IMG/VR virus record: IMGVR_UViG_3300042007_000062
Location: 1-41,057 of that record
Origin: a virus
Reading direction: 5' to 3' (one strand)
DNA: 41,057 bases
This document shows, piece by piece, positions 7,117 to 31,949 of the stretch; within the stretch, counting starts at the first letter, position 1, and the number at the start of each line of letters is the position of its first letter. The notes under the pieces were generated by a model. The model saw nothing but the letters and a program-made list of their open reading frames with translations, was not told the origin of the DNA and did not search any database. Made by a program: the position numbers and the translations under genes.

Positions 7117-10100
7117 TTAGCCGTTCCTCCGCATTGCCAATTGCATTTGCCGCCCCGCCGTCGCGCCGAACTGCATCGCGGTCGCACGCGACGAGCCAGC
7201 GGGCGGCGCCACCGTCACATTGAGATAGGTATTCCCGCCGCCGCGCGCCGCCGTGGGCGTGGGCGACACGTCCCCGCCATGCTGCCCAAGCATCAAATAT
7301 TCTTTGCCCGCGACCGTCAGCAATTCCGGCCCGCGTTCGTTGACCCGGTACAGCCCACCGGACGAAACAGGCCCGCCAATCGCGCGACTACCAGCCGCCG
7401 CCGCGACCGCGAGAAAATCCGCTCCACTTTTGGCGCCACTGCTTGCGGCCACGCTCGCCAATGCGGCGGCGGCGGCTGTTGCGGCGGCACCTAGCCCGCC
7501 CAGCGCCGCAACGTTCGTTGCCGATGCCGTCGCAATGACGGATGCCGCCGCAGTTTCCGCAGCGGCCAATGCCGCCGCACTCGTTGCCGCCGCAGTGGTT
7601 GCGGCGGTTGCCGCCGTGATGGCGGCGGTTTGCGCGGCAAGTGCGGCGCTTGACGCGGCTTGCGCGGTCGCCTGCGCGGATTCGCTCGCGGCTGATGCCG
7701 CGCCGCCAACCGCCGTCGTCGCGCCAAGCGCGCCACCGGATGCCAGCCCCGCCGCGCCCGACGTGCCGACCGACGCCAGCGCCGCCGCCGCCGCGCCCGC
7801 CGCGCTCGCAAGGCTGGTGATTCCCGCCGTGGATGCCGACACGCTGGCCGTTTGTGCCGTCAGGGCCGTTGTAGAAGCCGTTAGCGCCGCCGTTTGCGCG
7901 GCTTGGCCTGATAGCTCACCCGCGCTGCCAAAAACGCTGGTAGCCCCGTTTAACACGCTTGCGGCCGATTTTGTGCCCCCGGCTGCATTCGCCGCGCTGC
8001 CGAACACGTTACCAAGGCTGGAACTAAGGCCGGAATTGTTCAACAGGGCATCAACGCCCTTGCCAATCAGGGACCGGAAGCCGATCCGCACAAGGTCCGC
8101 GTGAATCGACTGCACCAAATCCTTGAACGTCAGCTTGCCCGTAGTCGCCAGCGTTACAAACGCATCCTCGATACCGCTTAGGGCGTTCGTGAAGGCGTGT
8201 TCGGTCATTCCGGCGATGTCTTGGGTTTCGTCGGCGTAGTTGTGCAGCGCTTCCGTCATGCCGGTCAGGGCGTCCGCGTTCTTCTGTTCGATTGCGTTCG
8301 TGCGCTCGTCGTACAGGCGGATTTCTTCGCTATACGTGGCTTCGGCAACCTGCAAATATGCGGCGTACTGCTCGTTGGTGATGTCCTTGCGGCGCAGGTC
8401 AGAATCAAGCTCGTTTTTGCGGGTCAATAGCTTGTCTTCAATCGCGTTGATGCCTTCCTGCCGATCACGGAATTTTTGACCGCGCCCGGCACCCTCGACA
8501 ATGCGCGCGTTCTGCCGCTTAATGGTATCGATGTACTCTTGCGCCGCCGCTGCCGCATCAAGATATGCTTGCGTGATTTTGCCCACGCTGGCGGCTTGGT
8601 CGCTCGCGGTCAGGTCAAGCGCAATGGCTTCGTTTTCGCGGACCTTGGACAACTTGCCGCGCGCTTCCGCAATTTTCCTTTCGTTCGCCAGCCGCTCCTT
8701 GCCGGTCAACTTTTCCTGCTCCATGCGCGCAATCTCGGCGGTCAATGCGCGGGCTTGCTCGTCGGCGTCCAGGCGGATCAATGCCGCCTTGCTTTCGTAA
8801 TACTCGGTTTCGCTGACAAGGTTGCTTTGTCGGCGCGCTTGCAAAACGCGTTCGGCGTTCTGGTACGTGTTAAGCGTCTTTTCCGATGCCTGCCGGATGA
8901 TTTCAATATCAAGGTCCGTTTGCGCCTTGCGATCCGCCGTTGCCTTGGCGGCGTTGGCTTTTTCGCTGGCGGCAGGCGGCGTGTATTTGAGTGTCTTTTT
9001 CGGCGGCTCTTGCGGTTCCGGCTTCGGCTTTTCGTCAGGTTTCGGCTTCGGCTTGTCACTCGGCAGCGGCGGCTGTGCGGGCTTGTTCAACGCCATGACA
9101 CCACGCTGAAACTGGTCAAGGCGGGCGCGATCTGCGGCGGCGGCGTCCGCTACTTCCTTGCCAATGTCGCGAATCGCCTTGAAGTCAAGGCGTTGAAGCG
9201 CCGCCGCCTGCCGCTTCAAGCCGTCCATTTCCCGCGCGATGGTCCGCACCGTAAAGGCGACATCGGAACCGATCACGGCGAAAGTTTGGAAGACCATGAC
9301 GGCACCAGACAACGCGCCTTTCATGGTCGCGGTGACAGCGGCAACGGCGTCCTCGTTCTTCGCCAAGTCCGCAAGGTAGTTCGTGAACTTGGTGATTTCA
9401 GGGATCAGCTTCACCGCCAGCGCCGACGCCTGCAAACTCAGTTGCGCGCGTACCTTTGCCAACTTGTCGGCGTAGTCGTCGGCTTGCTCGATCTGCTCTT
9501 GCGTCAGGATTTTTTGCCGCCCGCCCTCGTTGCCAAGCTCTTTAAGGAAAGACAGCATTTCCTTACCGGACTTGCTAAACAGGGCGGTTGCAACGGTCGC
9601 CTTTGCGGACGAATCCTCAAACGAGTTGAACGCCTTGCCGATGGCTTCCAGTTGTTCCGCGCCCGACATCGCTTTAAGGTCTTTGATGTTCAGACCCAGC
9701 GCGGCCAGTGCGGCGCCTGCCGCCTTCGATTCATCATCGACGCCCGACAGGTTGTTGTTCAGTTTTACGATGGCGTCGGATACTGCGGTCATTTCCAACC
9801 CGCCGACCTTGGCGGACACGAACAGGGACGCGAGATTTTCCGCGCTTTCGCCCGTCTTTTCCGCCATGTCTTGGAAATCGGCGGCTTGCGTCACGAACTC
9901 GTTAAAGTAGTGGACGCCCGCCACAGTCATTGCAGCAGCGGCGGCGGCAATGGTCAGGAACGCCGTTTTCATGCGCTCCTTGTGACGCTCCGCGTTGTCC
10001 GCCGCTTTCTTCAATGCCTCTTGGTTTTTGTCCCACGCGTCACGCGCGGCAAGCGCCGTATTTGCGGCCTTCAACTGCGCATCACTAGCGCCCTTCAACG

Positions 10101-15478: not shown

Positions 15479-16720
15479 TTACTGTTCGACAGGCGGGGCG
15501 ACTTCCGCGCCGCCGCCGTTGTTCATCTTGCCCAGCATCGACAGCGGGGCAAGGTTGCTTTGCGCAGTCAATTCGTCCGCGCCTGCAATGGGCGGATCGT
15601 TCTCCAACTGGCGGCACTCGTTGCGCGTTTTGAGGCCGTTCTGGACGGCTCGCGCGTACACGTCCATGCGGTCTTTCAAGCTGCCGCGCAAAAGGGCTTC
15701 CATCGCAAATTCAGCGGTCATCGTGGCGCGCTGACGCGGCGTCATAACGCGCTTACGAATCGCCTGCTCAACCGATACGAGCATTGGACGAATGGTCAGC
15801 TTGTAGAAGCCATCGACAATCTGCTCGATGCCGCTGCCCCAGGTCGTTGTATTGGAGTGATGCACCAGCACGGGCGGCACGTCGAACCACCGGCAAATCT
15901 CCTCGACCGTGAAGCGGCGCGTGTCCAAGAGTTCCATGTCTTCGGGCAGCATGGAAAGCTGCTGATATTTCATGTTCGCTTCAAGCACGTACAGCCGGGA
16001 TACCGGCCCGCTCGCCATTTCCGCAAACCGTTTTTGGATTTGGTCGCGCTGTTCCTGCTTCAACACGTTATCGACCATCAGGACGCCCGTGGGCTTGCCG
16101 CCGTTCCCAAACAGTTTGCTTGCCGACGTTTGCGCCTTGGCCGCTTCGTCGGTCGTCGCGCGCATGAAATCCAGTTTCGACAAACCGACCGTGCCGTTGC
16201 CAAGGTTTTTCAGATGCAGTACGTTTTCCTCCGCGAGAATCGCGATGCTCCCGTCTAGCCGATACTCGTACAACATCGTGCCGTCATCCATCACGAACGG
16301 GCGCACTTGGTCCGCAGGCATCGGCCACAACGCCAGCGCTTCGCCCGTGTCGTCACGCTCGATGCGCGCATACGCGTTGCCGCGCAGGTCGTGATTCATA
16401 ATCATCGCGCGCCAGAACTCGTAAGGCGTCATGCGATTGTTAGGCGAGTCATGAAGCAGGGCATACAGGCGCGACATGCGCGCAAGTTCCTTTTGCCCTT
16501 TCACCGTCTGATAGACGAAAAACGGAAGGCTTGCGATAACAGCGGCGCGTCGCTCGACACATGCCCATACCGCCGCGATCTGCAACGCGCCATCGGTCCC
16601 GATGTTCGCCACATCAGACACCAGCGCGACAGACGGCAATCCGTCCTGCGCGCCCGAATGCTCGCCAATGGCGCCGCCGCTGCCCCACCAACGCCGGAAC
16701 GTGTTTAAAAGGTTCGCCAT
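15479..16720 (-). CDS. Portal protein (HK97 gp3 family)
   Basis: 413 residues, the usual length. AAVWACVERRAAVIASLPFFVYQ, LLHDSPNNRMTPYEFWRAMIMNHDLRGNAYARIERD and RRFTVEEICRWFDVPPVLVHHSNTTTWGSGIEQ are the family's conserved blocks. It forms the dodecameric ring for DNA entry and exit and binds terminase and connector. The C-terminal 20 residues are short of order (glycine and proline-rich). Four bases separate it from the terminase gene. Confidence 0.96.
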   Translation of the reverse strand: MANLLNTFRRWWGSGGAIGEHSGAQDGLPSVALVSDVANIGTDGALQIAAVWACVERRAAVIASLPFFVYQTVKGQKELARMSRLYALLHDSPNNRMTPYEFWRAMIMNHDLRGNAYARIERDDTGEALALWPMPADQVRPFVMDDGTMLYEYRLDGSIAILAEENVLHLKNLGNGTVGLSKLDFMRATTDEAAKAQTSASKLFGNGGKPTGVLMVDNVLKQEQRDQIQKRFAEMASGPVSRLYVLEANMKYQQLSMLPEDMELLDTRRFTVEEICRWFDVPPVLVHHSNTTTWGSGIEQIVDGFYKLTIRPMLVSVEQAIRKRVMTPRQRATMTAEFAMEALLRGSLKDRMDVYARAVQNGLKTRNECRQLENDPPIAGADELTAQSNLAPLSMLGKMNNGGGAEVAPPVEQ

Positions 16721-20008: not shown

Positions 20009-20146
20009 TCAACCGCCCGCCAATAGCACGCCAAGCGCACGCGGAAGCGCTGCCGCCAGCGGGGAAAGCTGGACATATACCGCGCAAAGGGTCGCACCAC
20101 CAACGGCGATTAGGGCGGCTGAGGCGAGCAATTGAGAGTTACGCAT
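20009..20146 (-). CDS. 45-residue hydrophobic membrane protein at the head of the late region
   Basis: A short gene: MRNSQLLASAALIAVGGATL, then CAVYVQLSPLAAALPRAL and GVLLAGG. Two hydrophobic stretches (about 6-25 and 30-43) with a single basic N-terminal residue suggest one or two membrane segments or a secreted/anchored peptide. A GAAAGGAAA box lies 6-9 nt before the ATG and an extended -10 box lies about 40 nt upstream. It would be the first gene of the late transcript. A pinholin, an early lysis modulator or a superinfection-exclusion peptide are all possible; I do not recognise a homologue. Confidence 0.65.
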   Translation of the reverse strand: MRNSQLLASAALIAVGGATLCAVYVQLSPLAAALPRALGVLLAGG

Positions 20147-20251: not shown

Positions 20252-20280
20252 TTGTAAAGCTCAAAAATTGAGCCTATAGT
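20252..20280 (+). promoter_or_regulatory. Promoter P1 of the plus-strand cassette with a palindromic operator
   Basis: TTGTAA, exactly 17 bases, then TATAGT. The spacer is filled by a perfect palindrome GCTCAA-AAA-TTGAGC (20259-20273), so a dimeric repressor bound there would block polymerase. About 44 bases from the -35 region through the first transcribed bases (to GCGCAC) are repeated almost exactly at 21159-21202. An ATG lies 7 bases after the -10 and could be a leaderless start. Confidence 0.85.
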
Positions 20281-20330
20281 TAAGTCATGGCAGCGCACGG
20301 AGCGCGGCCCAGGTCGAACGGGAGAACATC

Positions 20331-20720
20331 ATGGAATACGCCGCAAACCATTGGGATCAAATCGGGCACTTCTACGCGCCAATCGCATCTTTCAACGGCG
20401 CCATCTTGAAATATCAAGGGATTGCCACGGAAGGCAACCGCGCCTTCCTCTTTGAAACCCATCCGAACGGCGTCATCCTTGACACCTACAAGGGCGACCG
20501 CATTCGCGCCGCCGACCATAGCGAATATGAACCGCTAGGCTTCAACAGCAAGGCGCACCAGCTTGCCCGCAAACCGTGGGAACAGATCGAAGCCGCCGCC
20601 AAGCGCATTACCAACAACGGCGAGCGCGCCACGTTTGACGACGGCTCGTTTATCGAATGGAACCGTTTTGGACATCATCAAGCGTTTCTGTCGAACGGCT
20701 GGAACGTAACGCCGCGATAA
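20331..20720 (+). CDS. Unknown protein, first gene of the plus-strand cassette
   Basis: 129 residues, no family recognised. The sequence is soluble, rich in aromatics and acidic residues (NHWDQIGHFYAPIASFNGAILKYQGIA, then FDDGSFIEWNRFGHH), pI probably near neutral. It has no signal peptide or membrane segment. A GGGAGAA box precedes the ATG. It is transcribed from P1, against the flanking phage genes. A GCGCCC-TACG-GGGCGC hairpin without a T-run follows at 20728. Role inferred from context only: an accessory (moron) gene, possibly a counter-defence protein. Confidence 0.8.
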   Translation: MEYAANHWDQIGHFYAPIASFNGAILKYQGIATEGNRAFLFETHPNGVILDTYKGDRIRAADHSEYEPLGFNSKAHQLARKPWEQIEAAAKRITNNGERATFDDGSFIEWNRFGHHQAFLSNGWNVTPR

Positions 20721-20763
20721 CCAACCCGCGCCCTACGGGGCGCCACTCTTGAAAGGGCAGACC

Positions 20764-21072
20764 ATGAAAACGATGAGCAAAACCGAAGCGCTGAAAACCG
20801 CATCGCGCGCTGTCGGCTCCCCAATGGGGAGCGGTACTAGCTGGACGTTTTACGGCCCGTATTACTCGGACAAACTCGACGGCCCATCAGCCGAACATCG
20901 GGCGTCCAGCTATCCGGCCATCGTGCGCCGCCGCTCGCAATGCGTGGTTGAAATCGCCGTCGCGCTGATGGGCATTAAGGGATATGTTGACGTTGATTCC
21001 CTAAGCGGCGGTGCGCGGGAAATGCTCGCGCAAGTGCTATCCGATCCAAAACGCTATGTCATAACGCACTAA
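20764..21072 (+). CDS. Unknown protein, second gene of the plus-strand cassette
   Basis: 102 residues from the ATG with GAAAGGG about 7 nt upstream; a TTG five codons earlier is not needed. MKTMSKTEALKTASRAVG begins a helix, followed by GTSWTFYGPYYSDKLDGPS and a region of arginine and small residues ending in an AREMLAQVLSDP helix. I have a faint memory of similar proteins on betaproteobacterial mobile elements but cannot name a function. A strong terminator follows within 30 bases, so P1 drives only this gene and the one before. Confidence 0.78.
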   Translation: MKTMSKTEALKTASRAVGSPMGSGTSWTFYGPYYSDKLDGPSAEHRASSYPAIVRRRSQCVVEIAVALMGIKGYVDVDSLSGGAREMLAQVLSDPKRYVITH

Positions 21073-21097
21073 TCCCGCTCCAATCCGAAAGCATCCG

Positions 21098-21117
21098 GCG
21101 CCCTTCGGGGCGCTTTT
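21098..21117 (+). terminator. Intrinsic terminator between the two halves of the cassette
   Basis: GCGCCC-TTCG-GGGCGC with a UUCG tetraloop, followed by TTTT. It ends the P1 transcript before promoter P2. Confidence 0.85.
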
Positions 21118-21159
21118 GGCCGTTTATGCGACAGCACGCAACACACAATACGTTTTGAC

Positions 21160-21188
21160 TTGTAAAGCTCAAAAATTGAGCCTATAGT
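21160..21188 (+). promoter_or_regulatory. Promoter P2 of the plus-strand cassette with the same operator
   Basis: A near-perfect second copy of P1: TTGTAA, 17 bases, TATAGT, with palindrome GCTCAA-AAA-TTGAGC (21167-21181) in the spacer. A TTGACT lies just upstream as well. The ATG 7 bases after the -10 opens a 19-codon frame (MEAHRAQPKT...), possibly a leaderless leader peptide. Co-regulation of both halves by one repressor is implied. Confidence 0.85.
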
Positions 21189-21265
21189 TAAGTCATGGAA
21201 GCGCACCGGGCGCAACCAAAAACTGAAAGGGCACCCGTTAGGGCGTCTTATTGAAAGGGATTGAC

Positions 21266-21499
21266 ATGATTACTCGCCGTGAAATTATTTCCCGCCTGAC
21301 GCATTGCAGCGACGCAGAGCATGACCGCCTTTGCGACCGCTTCCAACAATGCAACGTTCGCATTGTCAGGGTAGATGGCACCTTTGAACTCAGTTTTGAA
21401 GTTCGCGGCCCGACAACCGCAGCGGCGGCGATGGAAAACGATCCTACGATCGCTCGTTTTGAGTATAACTTCAATAACGAGTGGGTTCCTGCCTACTAG
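21266..21499 (+). CDS. Unknown protein, third gene of the plus-strand cassette
   Basis: 77 residues from the ATG with GAAAGGGA eight bases upstream. MITRREIISRLTHCSDAEHDRLCDRF is helical, followed by a beta-rich half (VRIVRVDGTFELSFEVRG) and an aromatic end (FEYNFNNEWVPAY). No family recognised. It is the first gene after P2, and a GCGCC hairpin with TTTCC follows. Confidence 0.75.
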   Translation: MITRREIISRLTHCSDAEHDRLCDRFQQCNVRIVRVDGTFELSFEVRGPTTAAAAMENDPTIARFEYNFNNEWVPAY

Positions 21500-21518
21500 T
21501 TCGAGGAACCGGACAAAC

Positions 21519-21536
21519 AGCGCCTTTCGGGGCGCT
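21519..21536 (+). terminator. Weak hairpin after the third cassette gene
   Basis: AGCGCC-TTTCG-GGGCGCT followed by only TTTCC. It resembles the terminator at 21098 but has a poor T-run; probably attenuating or a stability element before the next GAAAGGG box. Confidence 0.5.
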
Positions 21537-21556
21537 TTCCGCTGAAAGGGCAGAAA

Positions 21557-21808
21557 ATGAAAATCAGTCACGACATGGACCTCAACCAGCTTGCCGCGCT
21601 GATGGGCAATTTCATCAACACTGAATGCGCCCAGCAAATGCGAGATTTACTCTTGGAAGTCACGGCCAGCCGCCCCGGTCATTGGACCGATACCGACGAT
21701 ATGCCCGTTTCGGTTTGGGATGATGCTGTGCTGGCCGTCACTGAATACCGCGTGCAGGTCATGCATTGCAAATTGATTCTCAATGAAAAATTGGAGGCTC
21801 GCGCATGA
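21557..21808 (+). CDS. Unknown acidic protein, fourth gene of the plus-strand cassette
   Basis: 83 residues. MKISHDMDLNQLAALMGNFINTECAQQMRDLLLEVTASRPGHWTDTDDMPVSVWDDAVLAV is strongly acidic and mostly helical; small acidic proteins of this kind are common among DNA mimics and anti-defence proteins, but that is only a composition argument. GAAAGGG precedes the ATG. Its stop overlaps the start of the HTH gene (GCATGAAC), so the two are translated together. Confidence 0.75.
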   Translation: MKISHDMDLNQLAALMGNFINTECAQQMRDLLLEVTASRPGHWTDTDDMPVSVWDDAVLAVTEYRVQVMHCKLILNEKLEARA

Positions 21809-21996
21809 ACACGAAACGCCCACCCGCCGCCACACCCGCGCAAGTCGTGGCCGCACGCGGTACGCGCACGCAAACCGAAATTGCGGAACTGCTCGGCGTG
21901 TCGCGCACCACCGTTCAGAATTGGGAAAACGGGCGCTCGCCAATCTCGCGTGTCGCGTGGCAAGCGCTGCAAAAGACTTTCGCAACTTTCCCATAA
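21805..21996 (+). CDS. Small XRE-type HTH protein, last gene of the cassette (Aca-like position)
   Basis: 63 residues. The sequence RTQTEIAELLGVSRTTVQNWENGRSPISRVAWQALQ is a complete helix-turn-helix of the XRE/Cro type, with a short N-terminal arm (MNTKRPPAATPAQVVAARG) and almost nothing after it. A protein of this size binds DNA as a dimer; the obvious target is the palindrome in P1 and P2, which would make it an autorepressor. Small HTH genes closing an operon of unknown small genes are the hallmark of anti-CRISPR-associated (Aca) regulators; that parallel is inference. A strong terminator follows. Confidence 0.85.
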   Translation: MNTKRPPAATPAQVVAARGTRTQTEIAELLGVSRTTVQNWENGRSPISRVAWQALQKTFATFP

Positions 21997-22013
21997 CCGG
22001 GAACACTCAAACG

Positions 22014-22038
22014 AAAGGGCGCATCAGGCGCCCTTTTT
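22014..22038 (+). terminator. Intrinsic terminator at the end of the plus-strand cassette
   Basis: AAAGGGCGC-ATCAG-GCGCCCTTT, a perfect 9-bp stem followed by TT. It touches the stop codon of the convergent Q-like gene. On the minus strand the T-run is only TTT, so termination there is weaker. Confidence 0.85.
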
Positions 22039-22424
22039 CATCTGCCATCCCTCGCAATGTGCCGCAATGGATGCTGCTCGTACATCAGGTAATTAAGCTG
22101 CTCATGCGTCCAGCGCAATTGCGCCGAATAGATTTGCCGTGAAATCCCCAGCATTTCGGCTTTCGCCTTTTGCGGGCGGCGGTCCAGATACTCAACCGCA
22201 ATAATGCGTTTATGACCCGGCGCAAGACGTTCGATGTACCCATCAAGAACGTGCAAATCCGGGGGCATATGGGAATCGTAGTATGTGTCCGTACTGCGGT
22301 TCAGGTTTTGCACGCGCTCCGTTGCGAACGCTGATTGACGAGGATAGCCGCCCGGCCCGCCGCCGCTCTCACGATGCAAATGCCAACTGGCCCAATCTCG
22401 TAACGCGGCTTTAATCCGGTCCAT
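22038..22424 (-). CDS. Antitermination protein Q-like (Phage_antitermQ type)
   Basis: 128 residues. An N-terminal MDRIKAALRDWASWHLHRESGGGPGGYP is followed by a helical domain LHVLDGYIERLAPGHKRIIAVEYLDRRPQKAKAEMLGISRQIYSAQLRWTHEQLN, an HTH of the sigma region 4 type. Both the domain order and the location (last leftward early gene, before the late genes) fit Q-type late antiterminators of the PF06530 group. It would load onto RNA polymerase at the late promoter. The terminator-like hairpins within the late operon support a need for such a protein. A sigma-like or autonomous regulator is the alternative. Confidence 0.7.
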   Translation of the reverse strand: MDRIKAALRDWASWHLHRESGGGPGGYPRQSAFATERVQNLNRSTDTYYDSHMPPDLHVLDGYIERLAPGHKRIIAVEYLDRRPQKAKAEMLGISRQIYSAQLRWTHEQLNYLMYEQHPLRHIARDGR

Positions 22425-22438
22425 GCGCTCCCCTTGTT

Positions 22439-22780
22439 TTAGTCCGCTTTGGTTTTAACGATCAATTCGCGGACCAGTGCGGCAACCTCACTGGCCGCAC
22501 GACCCGTCAGCACGGCGCGGCCATCAAACCGCAACAGCCGCCACCCCATCGCGGAAAGCTCGTTGTATTTCTCCATGTCCCCCAGCACGCCAGCGCCGCG
22601 CGTATGGCGTCCGCCTGTCCAGATGGCGCCCTCCAATTCAACGGCGAGCATCAGCCCAGGCCACGCAAAATCAATGCGCCATTTCCGTGTCGGATGAAAC
22701 TTGTATTCCGGTATAGGCATCGGCAAATCCAGATTTGCCAGATGCAACCAGAACACAGTTTCAAGTTTGGAGCGCGCCAT
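22439..22780 (-). CDS. Vsr/DUF559-like endonuclease
   Basis: 113 residues. The pattern E (7), WRIDFAWP, VELEGAIWTGGRHTRGAGVLGDMEKYNELSAMGWRLLRF is the PD-(D/E)xK core of the Vsr/DUF559 group: D in RIDFAWP and E in VELEG as metal ligands. Proteins of this type are frequent among phage early genes and may nick DNA in repair, recombination or host-DNA breakdown. No partner methyltransferase is present, so a restriction-linked Vsr role is unlikely. The start overlaps the stop of the XRE gene (TAATG). Confidence 0.82.
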   Translation of the reverse strand: MARSKLETVFWLHLANLDLPMPIPEYKFHPTRKWRIDFAWPGLMLAVELEGAIWTGGRHTRGAGVLGDMEKYNELSAMGWRLLRFDGRAVLTGRAASEVAALVRELIVKTKAD

Positions 22781-31479: not shown

Positions 31480-31949
31480 ACCCGCCACCCGCCGCGCCTA
31501 CTCAGGCGCGGCCCCCCTCTTTCATGCCCTCGCGGCAACATCACAAAAATCCACATTGTCACGTAAAACTTGTCAAAATTTCACATAGAAAGTGAGTTTT
31601 CAAGAGTTTTACAATTGTTAAATTTTACGTTACATCCTTGTAAGATCACTCTTACAATTCTTTTGTGTCAAATTCCGAAACTTTCTTCTCACTTTCTGGT
31701 TTGCATGTGTTAGTTTACCGCACTTAACAAGCCTACCGCGTTACCGGCTAGGCAAAAGCCGCAAAATTGTAGTCAGTCGGCATTGTTTGGGGGCAAGTAG
31801 CGCTGTTTTCACTGCCTTTTGCCTAGAATTTGCATTTGTTCAAATGTAAAGTTGCGTCTGAATTGCTAAGCATCCTTACTACGCCTCAACGCGTCGTCTA
31901 TCCGTATTGCATACAACATAGTTGCTAACCGCTATCTAGACTGTTACTT
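31480..31949. promoter_or_regulatory. 470-bp AT-rich regulatory region with several inverted repeats
   Basis: No gene is evident. It holds a perfect hairpin TTGTAAGA-TCAC-TCTTACAA (31638-31657), an inverted pair AGAAAGTGAG / CTCACTTTCT (about 31587 and 31690), and an inverted pair CTAGGCAAAAG (31748) / CTTTTGCCTAG (31816). The base composition is clearly more AT-rich than the neighbours. A TATCTA box at about 31934 is followed by the ATG of the next gene 11 bases later, so that mRNA may be nearly leaderless. Promoter with complex operators, a partition-type site or a second att-like region are possible. Confidence 0.55.

Follow-up and report, generated by a model that had tools for sequence, protein, structure and literature searches.

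What is a short run of small genes doing in a temperate phage, under two copies of one promoter, when the genes on both sides are read the other way? The DNA analysed here, referred to below as the window, is an IMG/VR virus record of 41,057 bases that carries the genes of a tailed phage. Terminase, portal, capsid and tail genes occupy its left part, and it also encodes a large serine integrase, a CI-like repressor, replication genes and an endolysin. We call the phage temperate because of the integrase and the CI-like repressor. Between the last early leftward gene (22038–22424, minus strand) and the late genes, which run leftward from 20146 to terminase, lies a plus-strand cassette (20252–22037) made up of two promoters, four small ORFs, an HTH gene and a terminator. 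An earlier note, made from the sequence alone, had read this arrangement as an anti-CRISPR/Aca-like layout. The features of the locus are as follows.

20009–20146, minus strand: 45-aa hydrophobic protein, the first small gene of the leftward late operon, followed by HNH and terminase genes
20252–20280, plus strand: P1 promoter, with −35 TTGTAA (20252–20257), a 17-nt spacer and −10 TATAGT (20275–20280); kept in related phages L005 (at 6820) and L006 (at 4563)
20259–20273, no strand: P1 operator-like palindrome GCTCAA-AAA-TTGAGC, inside the P1 spacer
20331–20720, plus strand: gene 1, 129 aa, 97% identical in L006; dN/dS 0.08
20728–20759, plus strand: intergenic unit 1, hairpin GCGCCCTACGGGGCGC and then RBS TGAAAGGGCA
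20764–21072, plus strand: gene 2, 102 aa, 93% identical in L005; dN/dS 0.10
21097–21118, plus strand: hairpin GGCGCCCTTCGGGGCGC followed by TTTT, a possible weak terminator (hairpin plus short T run)
21160–21188, plus strand: P2 promoter, the second operator-promoter copy, with the same hexamers, 17-nt spacer and palindrome as P1
21167–21181, no strand: P2 operator-like palindrome, inside the P2 spacer
21266–21499, plus strand: gene 3, 77 aa, an ORF seen in the window phage only
21520–21552, plus strand: intergenic unit 3, hairpin GCGCCTTTCGGGGCGC and then RBS TGAAAGGGCA
21557–21808, plus strand: gene 4, 83 aa, acidic (pI 4.7); its stop codon overlaps the HTH start codon (ATGA)
21805–21996, plus strand: gene 5, 63-aa HTH_3 protein (HTH_3 E 7e-9), basic (pI 11.7), kept in all three phages
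22013–22037, no strand: bidirectional intrinsic terminator (−16.8 kcal/mol on the plus strand and −15.0 kcal/mol on the other), kept in L005 and L006
22038–22424, minus strand: flanking gene, a proposed late regulator ("Q-like") by position

The ORF list agrees with the earlier gene count: five plus-strand ORFs of 129, 102, 77 (ATG at 21266), 83 and 63 aa, opposite in strand to their neighbors. The note had also spoken of terminators in the plural. A strong one is indeed present at 22013–22037, and it closes both the cassette and the early gene that faces it; the internal hairpins are strong too, but a short T run follows only the one near 21097. The name "Q-like" for the gene at 22038–22424 stands mainly on its position; in addition, the C-terminus of its product weakly resembles sigma region 4, and there is a weak match to the PA0613 family. 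The product has no detectable similarity to the antitermination protein that Halomonas phage H4907 encodes at the corresponding position. Next to this gene, a 113-aa protein (22439–22780, minus strand) matches phrog_503 (E 9e-34) and has weak similarity to MTES_1575/DUF559 endonuclease-like domains. Elsewhere in the window, an inverted repeat (TTGTAAGATCACTCTTACAA, 31629–31666) lies just downstream of the serine integrase gene and could mark an attachment site or be a terminator.

The twin promoters at 20252 and 21160 are as the note had described them, with hexamers, 17-nt spacer and palindrome identical in both, and they sit in a 55-nt repeat whose copies are 95% identical. Judged on composition alone, a promoter with a palindrome in its spacer is no more than mildly unusual: the window has two, whereas 20 Markov resamplings gave 0.4 on average and one of them also had two. 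The strong evidence against chance comes from the long repeat, from its conservation in two other phages, and from a center that has changed between intact arms. The palindrome is kept in the promoter spacer in five copies from three phages, and in P2 of L005 it reads GCTCAA-ATT-TTGAGC, i.e., the center is altered from AAA and both arms are kept, as would be expected for an operator bound by a dimer. Palindrome matches in L007, L008, L009 and L018 stand in unrelated contexts, and we took them as chance.

Within the 41-kb record there are exactly two sites, both in the cassette, with no further site at up to 3 mismatches. Since the palindrome is confined, within the phage, to the two core promoters, the regulator of P1 and P2 is likely to be local. 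Many morons are controlled by other regulators, and the palindrome could instead be an operator of the phage master repressor or of a host factor. We consider this improbable: there is no copy upstream of the CI-like gene, the 21-nt core of the palindrome promoter occurs in none of 84,980 bacterial and archaeal genomes, and the palindrome and the HTH gene are retained together while everything between them changes. We propose the 63-aa HTH protein as an Aca-like repressor of both promoters.

The exchange of the intervening genes is seen in two related metagenomic IMG/VR contigs, UViG_3300042008_000005 (L004/L005) and UViG_3300042157_000052 (L003/L006), in which the flanks of the cassette have ~92% DNA identity to the window. 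The order is P1-129-102-P2-77-83-HTH in the window, P1-69-102-P2-109-HTH in L005, and, in L006, P1-129-66 and then a 69-like domain joined in frame to the HTH. Promoter, HTH gene and terminator are thus constant across the three phages, and the genes between differ. Gene-HTH fusions of the L006 kind have parallels in AcrIIA1, AcrIIA13-15 and AcrIF24 (PMC9410881, PMC7648647). The edges of homology fall in the promoter leaders, at the intergenic hairpins and at or near the HTH start. Between the window and L005, a first block ends at 20306, in the promoter leader; a second runs from 20721, just past the stop codon of gene 1, to 21234 in the P2 leader; and homology restarts at the start codon of the HTH gene (21805). 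In the comparison with L006, it stops at 20746, just past the first hairpin, and restarts at 21829, inside the HTH gene.

Conservation of the coding sequences bears on whether the ORFs are genes at all. The dN/dS values given above for genes 1 and 2, together with 0.03–0.11 for the HTH gene, indicate that all three are real genes under purifying selection. It is very hard to credit that the four ORFs are not genes, or that the repeat arose by chance or in assembly, even though genes 3 and 4 are without any relative: the RBS unit described below stands at the starts of genes 2, 3 and 4, and a contig assembled independently has the repeat as well. For genes 1, 2 and 5 the artefact reading is largely refuted.

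No related phage devoid of the whole cassette was found, and bacterial genome scans with the promoter core and with a Q-like alignment gave no match to prophages in named hosts. A contig with a 67%-identical Q-like protein (L011) was set aside as a cassette comparison, since it stops right after that gene. The contigs also differ from the window outside the cassette. Between the cassette terminator and the Q-like gene, L005 (8250–8420) and L006 (5812–5975) have ~165–180 extra bases, absent from the window at 22050–22057, with a 10-bp inverted repeat (GTCCGGTCGC/GCGACCGGAC) and short minus-strand ORFs. This stretch has no Rfam match; it may be a small element or a leader region that the window phage has lost. 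In addition, ~210 bases between the portal and terminase genes of L006 (812–1021) are missing from the window (16711–16720); they may represent a small extra gene.

How Aca-like is the HTH protein itself? Aca proteins are described as 60–65 aa long with an inverted repeat always in the core promoter, and published sizes span 60–79 aa (PMC9410906); the window protein, a single-domain HTH protein of 63 aa, falls within that range. It is encoded last, overlapping gene 4 upstream and followed by the terminator, and holds the same place in L005 and L006. In every architectural respect open to comparison the protein agrees with the Aca pattern, and it lies outside the named families. In a single-sequence search of solved structures, the best Aca was Aca7 (E 0.28), Aca10 (7xi5) was absent among the matches at E ≤ 10, and the protein could not be assigned to any of Aca1–10. 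Profile comparison with hhalign showed a distant similarity to Aca10 homologues (77%, E 2e-5), and the CI-like protein of the window phage, used as a control, scored 8%; pairwise identity to Aca10 homologues is 28–35%.

The closest general relatives among solved structures, at weak E-values, include the antitoxins HipB, HigA and PezA. Together with the overlap between gene 4 and the HTH gene, this would suit a toxin-antitoxin operon in which the HTH protein is the autoregulating antitoxin and gene 4 the toxin. Toxin-antitoxin partners are conserved pairs, whereas the gene adjoining the HTH differs in all three phages (encoding 83 aa in the window and 109 aa in L005, and a fused domain in L006). 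No toxin family was matched, and two promoters with up to four upstream genes would be atypical. The probability that we assign to a toxin-antitoxin operon is accordingly small, a little below that of control by another regulator.

The most telling comparison came from the spaces between the genes. Between cassette genes, a hairpin (GCGCCYNNCGGGGCGC) is followed by TGAAAGGGCA and then by the start codon. The exact hairpin has three copies in the window, all in the cassette, and both exact RBS matches in the window are there as well. A scan of IMG/VR for the hairpin+RBS unit returned nine stretches. Two are the known relatives; matches in L019–L022, L024 and L025 are partial and were taken as chance. 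The remaining one, L023 (UViG_3300044693_000046), comes from an otherwise unrelated phage and matches the unit at 84% over 49 nt, directly upstream of a 78-aa gene whose stop codon overlaps a 63-aa HTH gene. The HTH protein of L023 is a clear Aca10 homologue (PDB 7xi5, E 5e-22), 35% identical to that of the window over 46 residues. The operon has a promoter at 9215 (TTGCGA-N16-TATAGT) with a palindrome, CACGGAATCCGTG, that fills the spacer. The signature of the window cassette, with no HTH sequence in the query, thus reached an Aca10-type operon, and this is the strongest independent support for the Aca-like idea. Two proteins of 81 and 78 aa precede the Aca10 homologue (L023, 9277–9800) and are further anti-defence candidates.

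As a control, an HTH protein of the Aca10 group from a Klebsiella plasmid (7xi5, E 4e-21) was found to have AATACGCTCATTGAGCGTATT upstream of its operon, which is the published Aca10 site, letter for letter (PMC9410881). The plasmid, an IncFIA plasmid of Klebsiella pneumoniae (L026, 2437–2457 and 2491–3189), encodes a 148-aa protein and the Aca10 homologue behind a promoter with this exact operator, and the operon is itself an anti-CRISPR or anti-defence candidate; the HTH search matched 62 Klebsiella plasmid records. Aca10 was described from acrIC7-acrIC6-aca10 of Pseudomonas citronellolis (PDB 7XI5), and its operator and the window palindrome both have half-sites GCTCA/TGAGC. With 5 bp between the half-sites in the window and 1 bp in the published site, the geometry of binding must differ, and we set the common half-site aside as evidence of family membership.

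The reading as an Aca-like layout is well supported at the level of sequence: HTH gene, promoter and terminator are fixed, the genes between are shuffled, the palindrome arms are kept, a gene-HTH fusion occurs, and the intergenic units are common to an Aca10-type operon. The kind of locus is already known, namely, shuffled acr-aca-like operons. Those with Aca1, Aca5, Aca6, Aca7 and Aca9 likewise have a small HTH protein of 60–79 aa, often HTH_3 and usually encoded last, and an inverted repeat in the core promoter; their small neighbor genes shuffle while the HTH gene stays, and gene-HTH fusions occur. The aca gene keeps its position as candidates shuffle in clusters of 2–4 genes (PMC7648647). 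Unlike these operons, the window cassette is without a proven Acr, has two complete operator-promoters under one HTH protein, and encodes an HTH protein outside the named families by single-sequence search. New here are a distinct HTH lineage with a candidate operator, duplicated operator-promoters and orphan candidate effectors, and the presence of hairpin+RBS units at the joints of both the window cassette and an Aca10 operon.

The effectors themselves say little about their role. Searches of Pfam, NCBIfam, PADLOC, PDB, and phage and plasmid records related none of the four proteins to one of known function, and the same is true of the replacement genes of L005 and L006. No clear homologue in lysis or metabolism came up, the kind of result that the note had named as contrary to its reading. 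Gene 1 alone among the four has distant relatives. Small proteins encoded in gene-dense stretches of two 65-kb phages share 47% identity with its N-terminal half, and phrog_7236, a family without assigned function, matches the C-terminal half. Gene 2 has no homologue beyond its L005 copy, and none was found for gene 3. Weak profile matches were seen for gene 3 (pYEATS, E 0.018, below the cut-off) and for the 109-aa protein of L005 (PDC-M01B, E 0.0017). Predicted structures of gene 1 (mean pLDDT 37.6) and gene 2 (53.5) were too poor for use. Acrs often have no recognizable homologues. The cassette genes matched no known Acr in Pfam, PHROGs, NCBIfam or PDB, and neither the cassette nor its two relatives has a recognized Acr or anti-restriction gene. 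A counter-defence role, which the layout suggests, is plausible; a specifically anti-CRISPR one is unproven.

The cassette could instead be an autoregulated moron that benefits the lysogen, through superinfection exclusion or lysogenic conversion, with no anti-defence role on entry. As in lambdoid phage morons, it has its own promoter and terminator, is inserted against the phage genes in an orientation of its own, and varies in gene content among relatives; this classic signature, in a temperate phage and with no predicted defence protein, fits such a role. The repeated operator-promoters, with several genes under one dedicated regulator, set it apart from lambdoid morons. A strong promoter that its own product turns off is better suited to a burst on entry than to constant expression in a lysogen, the layout and the shared intergenic units match Aca operons, and the four proteins, all with negative gravy values, include no membrane or secreted ones. 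We regard a lysogen benefit as the most serious of the competing readings, yet still unlikely.

The locus is thus probably a self-regulated accessory cassette, with the HTH protein as autorepressor at the palindromes and with exchangeable effectors that most likely serve counter-defence. P1 and P2, two copies of one strong promoter in a cassette that separates the late operon from the last early gene, would fire early, on entry of the DNA, and the small effectors would act at once. An HTH dimer would then accumulate, bind the palindrome between the −35 and −10 elements of both promoters and block RNA polymerase, shutting off the whole cassette after the initial burst, as with Aca proteins. We infer this binding, repression and timing, as well as the function of the effectors, from the arrangement and conservation of the locus. 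Two operator-promoters under one repressor would allow extra genes to be added without loss of control. Unrestrained acr transcription disturbs downstream phage genes (PMC9410906), and self-limitation would also lessen transcriptional interference here, because the flanking late genes and early gene read the opposite way. More tentatively, and with the balance of probability somewhat against it, the cassette may work as a cartridge system in which Aca-like repressor and operator-promoter form fixed ends and the hairpin+RBS units serve as joints for single-gene swaps, even between operons of different Aca families.

There is at present no better place to look for new inhibitors of bacterial immunity than operons of this layout. 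The cassette yields a short list of orphan candidate proteins and a regulator with a defined 15-bp candidate target, and its searchable intergenic signature, taken from one phage, has pointed the way to an Aca10-type operon in a second one. If the hairpin+RBS units are true recombination joints, they would explain how such operons are reshuffled so quickly; and if the cartridge reading is true, the proteins of 129, 102, 77, 83, 69, 109 and 66 aa, together with the fused domain, would represent several new families of defence inhibitors.
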